Shown here one piece after another: positions 56,021 through 59,817 of a stretch of DNA of 64,000 nt. The position numbers and the translations under genes are program-made. Source of the stretch: Buchnera aphidicola (Ceratovacuna keduensis). GTDB taxonomy: Bacteria > Pseudomonadota > Gammaproteobacteria > Enterobacterales > Enterobacteriaceae. The notes beneath the pieces are model-generated. The model had not been told where the DNA came from. It saw only the letters and a list, made by a program, of their open reading frames with translations, and ran no database searches. Each line of letters opens with the position of its first letter. Positions within the stretch are counted from its first letter, which is position 1. The stretch spans positions 1 through 64,000 of the forward strand of contig NZ_CP134994.1 in NCBI RefSeq assembly GCF_039372665.1. The letters are read 5' to 3'.

Positions 56021-57964
56021 ATGAATGAAAAATTATCGTTTGAAAAAAAAATAGAAAAAAATAATTTTTTTAAAATTTTTTTTAATATTATAAAAAAAAA
56101 TATTATTGTGTTTTTAATTTTAGTATCATTATTTTTAACATCAGTATTTTCTATTTTTTTTTTATATAGATCAAATAATTATTGTACATTATATAATAAT
56201 TTATCTAATGAAGATAAAAATTCGATTATTTTAGAATTGTCTAGTATGAATATTCCTTATAAAATTTATAGTTCTGACAATAAAATTAAAATACCTAGAA
56301 ATTTAATTTATCAAGTTAGAATGAATTTATCTGAAAAGGGAATTCCTAAAGAAAATATAAATGGTTTTGAAATATTAGATAAAGAGAAATTTGGAGAAAG
56401 TCAATTTCATGAAAGAATAAATTATCAAAGAGCATTAGAAGGAGAATTATCAAAAACTATAATGAAAATAGATTCTATAAAAAATGCTTCTGTTCATTTA
56501 GTAATTAATTCTAAATCAATTTTTATAAATAATGATATAGATTCTTCTGCATCAATTTTGTTAACATTAAAGTTTGGAAAATATTTAGATTCAAATAAAA
56601 TAGATGCAATTTTACATTTAGTATCTACAAGTGTATCTGGTTTAAAATATAAAAATATAACTATAGTAGATCAATATGGAAATTTTTTGAATAAATTATC
56701 AGATATAGATATATATGGAAATAGTAAATTAATTTATATAAATGATATAGAGCAAAAATATAAAAAAAAAATTGAAGAAATTTTAATTCCATTATTTGGT
56801 ATAAATAATATACATGCTCAGGTAACAGCACAAGTAGATTTTGATAAAAAAGAAAAAGTAGAAGAGCATTATAAACCTAATTCAAATATTTTTGATAAAT
56901 CTATTAGATCTAATCAAAGTGTTTATAGTAAAGAATTTCATAGTGAAAATAAAAATGTTAATATAAAAGAAAATTATTTAAAAAAAAAAGATGACAAAGA
57001 TATAAAAAATAATTTAAATTCTAATATGTCTAAACAAGATATTAATTCTAAAAAAAATATAATTAATGATAAAGATAATAAAAATTTTTTGAACAATGGT
57101 GATTATGTTTCTAATTATGATAATACTACTAATTATGAATTAGATCATAACATTATAAATACTAAAATGAATGTAGGAAACTTAAAAAAAATTTCAGTAG
57201 GTATTGTAATAAATTATATAAAAGATTCTAACGGGAAATTTATACCATTAAATATAAATGATATTGAAAAAATAAAATGTTTAGTAAAAAATTCAATAGG
57301 ATTTTCTGAAGAAAGAGGTGATACGGTAGATTTAGTAAATTCATTATTTTTTCACAATCCTGAAATAAAAAAAGAAAAAAATATACTTGTAGAAAAAAAT
57401 TATTCAGACATTTTTTTTGACAATTTTTTATTTATTTTATTAACTATTATATTATTTATATTTTTTTATGAATTTTTATTAAAAAAAATATTTTTTTATA
57501 TATTTCGAAGAAATAAAAACAATAATAAAAATATAAAAATAAATAATAAAGATGTAAATAATAAAGATGTAAATAATAAAGATGTAAATAATAAAGATGT
57601 AAATAATAAAGATGTAAATAATAAAGATGTAAATAATAAAGATGTAAATAATAAAGATGTAAATGATAAAGATGTAAATAATAAAGATGTAAATAATAAA
57701 GATGTAAATGATAAAGATGTAAATGATAAAGATGTAAATAATAAAGATGTAAATGATAAAGATGTAAATAATAAAGATGTAAATGATAAAGATGTAAATG
57801 ATAAAAAATATATAAATAAAAAAATTGTTAAAGAAAAATCTAAAGAAAAAACATTTTCTAATGCATTAGTAGTTACTAAACAAAATAAAGAAAATAAAAA
57901 TATTTTTGAAAGAAAATCTTTATTTATAGCAAAAATTATTCGAAATTGGATAAATAAAAAATGA
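56021..57964 (+). CDS. fliF: Flagellar MS-ring protein FliF with a repeat-expanded tail
   Basis: FliF builds the MS ring of the basal body. At 647 aa it is much longer than the 552 aa of E. coli. Transmembrane segments lie at ~25-50 and ~466-488. The periplasmic ring-building motifs include GFEILDKEKFGESQFHERINYQRALEGEL and ASVHLVI. The cytoplasmic tail carries about 18 VN(N/D)KD pentapeptides (~508-596). These separate the second membrane helix from the FliG-binding terminus (residues ~612-647, ending IAKIIRNWINKK). The stop overlaps the fliG start (ATGA at 57961). The extra length is almost wholly the repeat. Confidence 0.95.
   Translation: MNEKLSFEKKIEKNNFFKIFFNIIKKNIIVFLILVSLFLTSVFSIFFLYRSNNYCTLYNNLSNEDKNSIILELSSMNIPYKIYSSDNKIKIPRNLIYQVRMNLSEKGIPKENINGFEILDKEKFGESQFHERINYQRALEGELSKTIMKIDSIKNASVHLVINSKSIFINNDIDSSASILLTLKFGKYLDSNKIDAILHLVSTSVSGLKYKNITIVDQYGNFLNKLSDIDIYGNSKLIYINDIEQKYKKKIEEILIPLFGINNIHAQVTAQVDFDKKEKVEEHYKPNSNIFDKSIRSNQSVYSKEFHSENKNVNIKENYLKKKDDKDIKNNLNSNMSKQDINSKKNIINDKDNKNFLNNGDYVSNYDNTTNYELDHNIINTKMNVGNLKKISVGIVINYIKDSNGKFIPLNINDIEKIKCLVKNSIGFSEERGDTVDLVNSLFFHNPEIKKEKNILVEKNYSDIFFDNFLFILLTIILFIFFYEFLLKKIFFYIFRRNKNNNKNIKINNKDVNNKDVNNKDVNNKDVNNKDVNNKDVNNKDVNNKDVNDKDVNNKDVNNKDVNDKDVNDKDVNNKDVNDKDVNNKDVNDKDVNDKKYINKKIVKEKSKEKTFSNALVVTKQNKENKNIFERKSLFIAKIIRNWINKK
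57541..57805 (+). repeat. 15-bp minisatellite inside fliF
   Basis: Seventeen full and one partial copies of a 15-bp unit (aaataataaagatgt) run in frame and encode VNNKD or VNDKD. Units differ only at one base, aat versus gat. Reading by unit, N/D is N at 1-8, then D N N D D N D N D D. The first eight units are identical. It is a non-interspersed coding repeat, not a CRISPR: it has no spacers. Confidence 0.97.
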
Positions 57965-58434
57965 ATAATAGTATTGATGGTTATACAAAAAGTGCATGTT
58001 TATTATTTTTTTTAGGAATAAAAAAAAGTATAAAAATATTAAAGTATTTTAATGTAGATGAGAAAAGAAAAATAATATTAAAATTGTCGGATACTTCTAT
58101 ATTATCTAAAAAAAATATAGACATATCTATAAAATCTTATAAAGAATATTATAAAAATTTATTTTTTAATAAAAAAAAATATTTTAATAGTTATTTAAAA
58201 TCTATAGTTAATAAATCTTTTAATAAAGAAGATAGTTTATTTTTAATTGATAGTATTAATAATAAATCAACTTTTTTGAAAAATGTAAAAAAAGCAAATT
58301 CAATTAATGCTAAAAATTGTTATCTAATTTTTAAAAAAGAACATCCTCAGATAATTTCTGTGTTTTTAAAATATTTAAATAAAAAAAAATCTTTTAAGAT
58401 ATTATCTTTTTTTGAAAAAAAGTGTAGTAAATAA
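57961..58434 (+). pseudogene. fliG: Truncated fliG copy (FliG N-terminal and partial middle domain)
   Basis: Duplicate 5' part of fliG: residues 1-155 are identical to the intact copy at 58819, then Ser-Lys and a stop created by the duplication joint. It keeps the FliF-binding N-terminal domain (NNSIDGYTKSACLLFFLGIK) and the EHPQ motif (KKEHPQIISVF) of the middle domain. It lacks the C-terminal torque/FliM-binding part. It has the normal fliF-coupled ATG, so a 157-aa fragment could be made; I regard it as a by-product rather than a working FliG. Confidence 0.88.
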
Positions 58435-58822
58435 TAAAGATGTAAATAATAAAGATGTAAATAATAAAGATGTAAATAATAAAGATGTAAATAATAAAGA
58501 TGTAAATAATAAAGATGTAAATGATAAAGATGTAAATAATAAAGATGTAAATAATAAAGATGTAAATGATAAAGATGTAAATGATAAAGATGTAAATAAT
58601 AAAGATGTAAATGATAAAGATGTAAATAATAAAGATGTAAATGATAAAGATGTAAATGATAAAAAATATATAAATAAAAAAATTGTTAAAGAAAAATCTA
58701 AAGAAAAAACATTTTCTAATGCATTAGTAGTTACTAAACAAAATAAAGAAAATAAAAATATTTTTGAAAGAAAATCTTTATTTATAGCAAAAATTATTCG
58801 AAATTGGATAAATAAAAAATGA
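58412..58822 (+). pseudogene. fliF: Detached duplicate of the FliF C-terminal tail
   Basis: Open frame created by the duplication. Possible TTG start at 58412 (inside the end of the truncated fliG), then ~16 VN(N/D)KD units (58429-58663) and the FliF tail with the FliG-binding end, overlapping the start of intact fliG as the native fliF end does. It has no transmembrane segment and no ring domain. Whether it is translated is unknown; no clear ribosome-binding site precedes the TTG, but re-initiation after the truncated fliG stop at 58434 is possible. Confidence 0.75.
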
Positions 58823-59817
58823 ATAATAGTATTGATGGTTATACAAAAAGTGCATGTTTATTATTTTTTTTAGGAATAAAAAAAAGTATAAAAATATTAA
58901 AGTATTTTAATGTAGATGAGAAAAGAAAAATAATATTAAAATTGTCGGATACTTCTATATTATCTAAAAAAAATATAGACATATCTATAAAATCTTATAA
59001 AGAATATTATAAAAATTTATTTTTTAATAAAAAAAAATATTTTAATAGTTATTTAAAATCTATAGTTAATAAATCTTTTAATAAAGAAGATAGTTTATTT
59101 TTAATTGATAGTATTAATAATAAATCAACTTTTTTGAAAAATGTAAAAAAAGCAAATTCAATTAATGCTAAAAATTGTTATCTAATTTTTAAAAAAGAAC
59201 ATCCTCAGATAATTTCTGTGTTTTTAAAATATTTAAATAAAAAAAAATCTTTTAAGATATTATCTTTTTTTGAAAAAAAGTGTAGATATGAAATTATTAA
59301 AAGAATGTTTGAAACTAGCAAACTTAGTGAATTTTCTAAGAATGAATTTTTTAAAATAATTAATTTTTTATTTAAAAAAAAAAAAATATTAGAAAAAAAT
59401 AATTTAGACAAAGCAATTAACATTTTTAATTTATTTTCTAAAAAAGAAAAAATTTTTATATTAAAAAATTGTTTTAAAAATAATTATAATGTTAGAAAAA
59501 AAATTATTTGTGAAATGTTTTCTTTTAAAGATATATTTAAAATGAGTGATTGTCATATATATATTTTATTAAAATATGTTAATAAAAAAATTTTATATAT
59601 TTCTATAGAAAATTTAGAAGAAAAATTTAAAAATAAAATTTTAGCAAACATGTCTAAAAAACAATTATATTATTTTTTTAAAATGATAAAAAATAGTAAT
59701 TTTAAAATTTCTTATGAAGAAATAAAAAGTAGTAGAAAAGATATTTTAAAAATTGTAAAAATTTTATTAGAAAAAAATATATTAATGTTAGAAGATATAG
59801 AGAAAATTTATGTATAA
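58819..59817 (+). CDS. fliG: Flagellar motor switch protein FliG (intact copy)
   Basis: C-ring component that joins FliF to FliM; 332 aa (E. coli 331). The N-terminal domain binds FliF, the middle domain carries EHPQ (~residue 125), and the C-terminal domain begins around ILEKNNLDKAINI. Charged residues of the torque helix (SRKDILKIVKILLEK) are present, although Buchnera has no flagellar filament. An in-frame run of 13 A lies at 59374-59386. The 3' end overlaps fliH by 8 bp. Confidence 0.95.
   Translation: MNNSIDGYTKSACLLFFLGIKKSIKILKYFNVDEKRKIILKLSDTSILSKKNIDISIKSYKEYYKNLFFNKKKYFNSYLKSIVNKSFNKEDSLFLIDSINNKSTFLKNVKKANSINAKNCYLIFKKEHPQIISVFLKYLNKKKSFKILSFFEKKCRYEIIKRMFETSKLSEFSKNEFFKIINFLFKKKKILEKNNLDKAINIFNLFSKKEKIFILKNCFKNNYNVRKKIICEMFSFKDIFKMSDCHIYILLKYVNKKILYISIENLEEKFKNKILANMSKKQLYYFFKMIKNSNFKISYEEIKSSRKDILKIVKILLEKNILMLEDIEKIYV

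Follow-up and report, generated by a model that had tools for sequence, protein, structure and literature searches.

Assembly errors at tandem repeats have been reviewed in general terms (PMC6868369), and tandem copies are also known from insect endosymbionts themselves. In Blochmannia, which has lost recA, a single gene, tolA, carries arrays that vary among species (five of six) in unit length and sequence (PMC4389277). Within the Buchnera clade considered here, a plasmid of the symbiont of C. japonica carries direct tandem copies (PMC9672956). The locus described below lies in the Buchnera chromosome of Ceratovacuna keduensis 05 (CP134994; 413,541 bp, 18.4% GC), where a segment reaching from the end of fliF into fliG is printed twice in a row.

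Direct comparison of the two segments in the 64-kb window (the whole stretch of DNA that was analyzed) showed identical 858-mers, with 0/858 differences, arrays included. The perfect 858-bp direct tandem duplication claimed in the original prediction is therefore present in the printed sequence, and an identity of this length is far beyond chance. No other exact repeat in the chromosome is as long. Among the five relatives compared (Buchnera of P. panicola 07, C. japonica, Astegopteryx bambusae 02, Chaitoregma tattakana 04, and Ceratoglyphina bambusae 01), the longest exact repeats fall within arrays of short units, with the exception of one relative, where the longest is a homopolymer run. 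The exact match extends to 859 nt at an offset of 858 (57569-58427 = 58427-59285), which means that the joint has one base (G) of microhomology, as had been predicted, and that the unit is 858 bp. Also in agreement with the prediction, the joint is flanked on one side by a 15-bp array and on the other by fliG near codon 155, the gene names fliF and fliG are supported by the open reading frames (ORFs) and Pfam, and Buchnera as the organism agrees with the source record. Two points need refinement. First, the two arrays are not equally long, having 17.7 units in copy 1 compared to 15.8 in copy 2; copy 2 begins 29 to 30 nt into the array. Second, the unit is indeed a multiple of three (286 codons), but the joint is out of the fliG frame. 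Of the three frames checked, only the fliF frame is open through the array unit, and fliG′ consequently stops two codons after the joint. One copy each of fliF and fliG is intact, and the surplus consists of a fliG that is cut short and the orphaned tail of a fliF (Table 1). An Rfam scan of the window found seven tRNAs and no other match.

Table 1. Features at the doubled fliF-fliG segment (window coordinates) and FliF arrays of four Buchnera chromosomes.
Feature	Position	Strand	Repeat unit and copies	Basis
Intact fliF, 647 aa; 15-bp array within the 3′ portion	56021..57964	+		ORF; Pfam YscJ_FliF, YscJ_FliF_C
15-bp tandem array, first copy (NNKDV / NDKDV)	57540..57805	+	17.7 units	Tandem Repeats Finder
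858-bp unit, first copy	57570..58427	+		Exact match
Truncated fliG′, 157 aa, FliG_N and half of FliG_M, ending two codons past the joint	57961..58434	+		ORF; Pfam; frame across joint
Joint, fliG running straight into the array, 1 nt microhomology	58427..58428	.		Exact match
858-bp unit, second copy, same as first	58428..59285	+		Exact match
15-bp tandem array, second copy	58427..58663	+	15.8 units	Tandem Repeats Finder
Orphan fliF tail without FliF N-terminal domains; longest ORF from TTG at 58412	58428..58822	+		ORF; Pfam
Intact fliG, 332 aa	58819..59817	+		ORF; Pfam FliG_N, FliG_M, FliG_C
C. keduensis array	FliF linker		15 bp x 17.7	
P. panicola 07 array	FliF linker		30 bp x 17	
C. japonica array	FliF linker		33 bp x 6.2	
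A. bambusae 02 array	FliF linker		27 bp x 4.4	

The genome was assembled from 2x150 Illumina reads using MEGAHIT, NOVOPlasty (insert 250, K-mer 33/30/27), Geneious, and Pilon; the DNA came from pools of five to twenty aphids, the libraries were PCR amplified, and the authors circularized the chromosomes and ran Pilon (PMC11193766). The accessible text of that paper does not state the MEGAHIT k values and makes no mention of long reads for the C. keduensis genome. Since 2x150 reads cannot span 858 bp, the source data do not settle whether one or two copies exist. The third contig of this Buchnera genome (2,262 bases) is all N.

The most likely explanation, with a probability of about 0.7, is that the 858-bp duplication is an untrimmed contig overlap and not real biology. 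A contig of the circular chromosome would have started inside the fliF 15-bp array, gone full circle, passed through that array a second time, and stopped in fliG. The contig would then carry the same 858 bp at both ends, and circularization would have placed these ends side by side without merging them; we infer that the contig ends lay at fliF-fliG and stayed untrimmed. This explanation is favored by the exact identity of the copies together with the position of the boundary in an array that is ambiguous for assembly at k=79 and k=99, the short reads, the absence of the duplication in five relatives, and an anomaly in a sister assembly. With regard to the ambiguous array, the chromosome with a single copy had 11 branching nodes at k=79 and 9 at k=99, all within two arrays, namely, the fliF 15-bp array and, close to the end of the record, an array of 56-bp units. 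These two arrays total 736 bases, or 0.18% of the chromosome, and the second copy begins within one of them. At k=27-59, the fliF array is one of the ambiguous places, and at k=119 and k=141, the array as printed shows no branching, so a break at this array would be obligatory only if the true array exceeded the printed length. Copy 2 opens with 95 to 96 nt of pure array, and a branch start at k=99 would carry 98 to 99 nt; this comparison was post hoc, with several k values tried, and was given no weight. With regard to the relatives, a second fliG was found in 0/5, each having one fliG match, which sets aside inheritance of the duplication from an ancestor.

The sister assembly in question is that of P. 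panicola 06 from the same study, in which the FliF protein (only the protein was compared) ends off-register after six array units and lacks the last 40 residues. The FliF of P. panicola 07 is full length and keeps the 40 C-terminal residues that are absent in 06. The break in P. panicola 06 could be either a misassembly or a real truncation. The P. panicola 07 array itself is 505 bp long and matches itself exactly over 461 nt when shifted by 30, which exceeds what 2x150 reads settle and makes the printed array lengths in this data set (PMC11193766) doubtful. Positions 234880-234975 of the A. bambusae 02 chromosome are 96 consecutive A, a stretch that is also hard to settle with such reads. 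The Buchnera record of Sitobion miscanthi (671,355 bp), which comes from another group, has two tmRNAs and exceeds the other 89 rows of a published table (PMC11193766, Table 1, row 29); it may contain an untrimmed overlap.

Some points argue against the untrimmed overlap. First, a perfect 858-bp end overlap is easily detected, and the authors both circularized the chromosome and ran Pilon. Second, a joint sharing only 1 nt is not the product of a jump from repeat to repeat in the assembly graph and requires either blunt joining or a real joint. Third, no comparable duplication was found in the four other chromosomes from the same study (P. panicola 07, A. bambusae 02, C. tattakana 04, and C. 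bambusae 01), which means that the pipeline does not often make such seams.

Next in order is a real, very recent tandem duplication, in which fliG sequence would have become illegitimately joined at a break or stall within the fliF array. We consider this unlikely, though well short of negligible; that slippage produced a real duplication, as in the original prediction, is not established, given the 2x150 reads, the array at the boundary, which is ambiguous at k=79 and k=99, and the array broken in a sister assembly. Because fliF and fliG both stay intact, such an event may be near neutral. Neither RecA over the cut-off nor MutS_V was found in any of the six genomes of the genus (0/6 for each; controls, 14/14 and 11/14), with two weak RecA matches below the cut-off in C. 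keduensis and C. tattakana. This makes array slippage and illegitimate joining plausible and rapid removal of the extra copy by RecA-dependent homologous recombination implausible. Furthermore, the fliF array is variable, being one 9-aa unit apart between A. bambusae 02 and 03 (both short-read assemblies), and tandem gene duplications have been reported in some Buchnera lineages (PMC11188193). Set against this is the age that a real duplication would have to have. The 0/858 differences give a 95% upper bound of 0.35%, compared to an 18.7% raw third-position difference in fliG codons 1 to 155 between C. keduensis and its nearest relative, P. panicola 07, so the event would be younger than about 2% of the C. 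keduensis-P. panicola split. Neither mark of age, i.e., differences between the copies or presence in relatives, is seen, but a very recent event would show none either. In addition, the duplication is absent from all five relatives, and a graph assembler given such reads would normally collapse a real 858-bp duplication to one copy. If real, it adds a truncated FliG N-domain and parts the intact fliG from the translated fliF end. An extension of this reading, which we regard as quite unlikely, is that the linker array of fliF acts as a hot spot of rearrangement in Buchnera without RecA and MutS, turning over its own units and also seeding larger tandem duplications and the off-register truncation of P. 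panicola 06, with polymorphism among aphid colonies. In that case, the truncated FliG N-domain could compete with FliG for FliF in a nonrotating basal body.

Near-homology-free joints are common among duplicated, excised, and chimeric molecules, and the pooled DNA and PCR-amplified libraries would suit a duplication or excised circle present in some symbionts, or a library PCR chimera, that was assembled as if fixed; however, an assembler usually drops a minority path at high coverage, which makes this very improbable. Two functional readings were rejected: a gene fusion across the joint, because the fliG frame hits stops in the array at once, and a second working FliF, because the second tail has no FliF domains in Pfam. 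A search with the truncated FliG as query matched the window's own protein alone among 166 candidates, in a size range (0.55 to 1.75 times the query) that leaves out full-length FliG. Scans of genome contigs with a FliI query confirmed 0 loci.

Beneath the doubled segment, the fliF array itself looks real. A tandem array was found at the same place in FliF in 4/6 Buchnera species, in frame and with the ORFs open, with units of 15, 30, 33, and 27 bp (Table 1), and none was found in C. tattakana or C. bambusae. By eye, it follows the last hydrophobic stretch of FliF and precedes the conserved C-terminal end, which binds FliG. First, among arrays with a period of at least 9 and at least 3 copies, the FliF array ranks as the strongest or second strongest in the chromosome in all four carriers, the rival being a 55- to 58-bp array near the record end. 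Second, the protein units share, as judged by eye, a core like NK[DN][VI][DN], and they may derive from one ancestral motif that was rehomogenized separately in each case. Third, among the 120 FliF proteins listed of 1518 matches, 4 have such a repeat, all from this clade; FliF trees place C. keduensis with P. panicola (96/93) and then C. japonica (80/99). Finally, the C. japonica chromosome rests on Nanopore reads, with Illumina reads used for polishing (PMC9672956), which means that in this species the array did not arise from short-read assembly. The fliF array thus appears to be a fast-changing in-frame minisatellite in the FliF linker of this Buchnera clade, and it probably grows and shrinks by replication slippage in cells where neither RecA nor MutS was found. 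Flagellin and motor genes have been lost in Buchnera lineages (PMC8109811), a loss that would fit a FliF linker free to vary in length.

The array near the record end was seen in 5/6 genomes, the exception being C. bambusae, with perfect or nearly perfect 55- to 58-bp units in 4.8 to 9.4 copies. In C. keduensis, it occupies positions 412922-413391 and stops 150 nt short of the record end, and the copy in C. japonica is in the Nanopore assembly. The minimum of the cumulative GC skew is at the record start, and this array may therefore lie at the replication origin. The GTPase beside the 56-bp array was considered as MnmE and this was rejected, since by eye the protein starts like Der.

The two leading explanations have different consequences. 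If the copies stem from an untrimmed overlap, CP134994 is 858 bp too long and contains a spurious truncated fliG, and the fliF arrays of the published data set should be checked with long reads before being interpreted as gene damage. If the duplication is real, a fresh structural mutation has been caught in a genome known for stability. Whichever holds for the 858-bp unit, this flagellar export gene has a coding minisatellite that could serve to measure turnover between aphid colonies in the absence of RecA and MutS. Our literature search found no report of the 858-bp duplication or of fliF arrays.

Compared with the described systems, the locus shows likenesses at two levels. The plasmid of the C. 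japonica symbiont resembles it in having direct tandem copies, but there whole units are seen in Nanopore reads, whereas in C. keduensis the unit is a partial, two-gene chromosomal segment printed without long reads (PMC9672956). As in the assembly errors described at tandem repeats, a repeat exceeding the read length lies at the edge of the doubtful structure; however, that work stresses collapse (PMC6868369), whereas the C. keduensis stretch is present twice, as it would be after an untrimmed end overlap. The tolA arrays of Blochmannia belong to another gene and genus and have units of 81 to 102 bp, compared to 15 to 33 bp in Buchnera fliF (PMC4389277). They bear on the fliF array and not on the 858-bp unit, and for that array they are the nearest parallel that we have seen.
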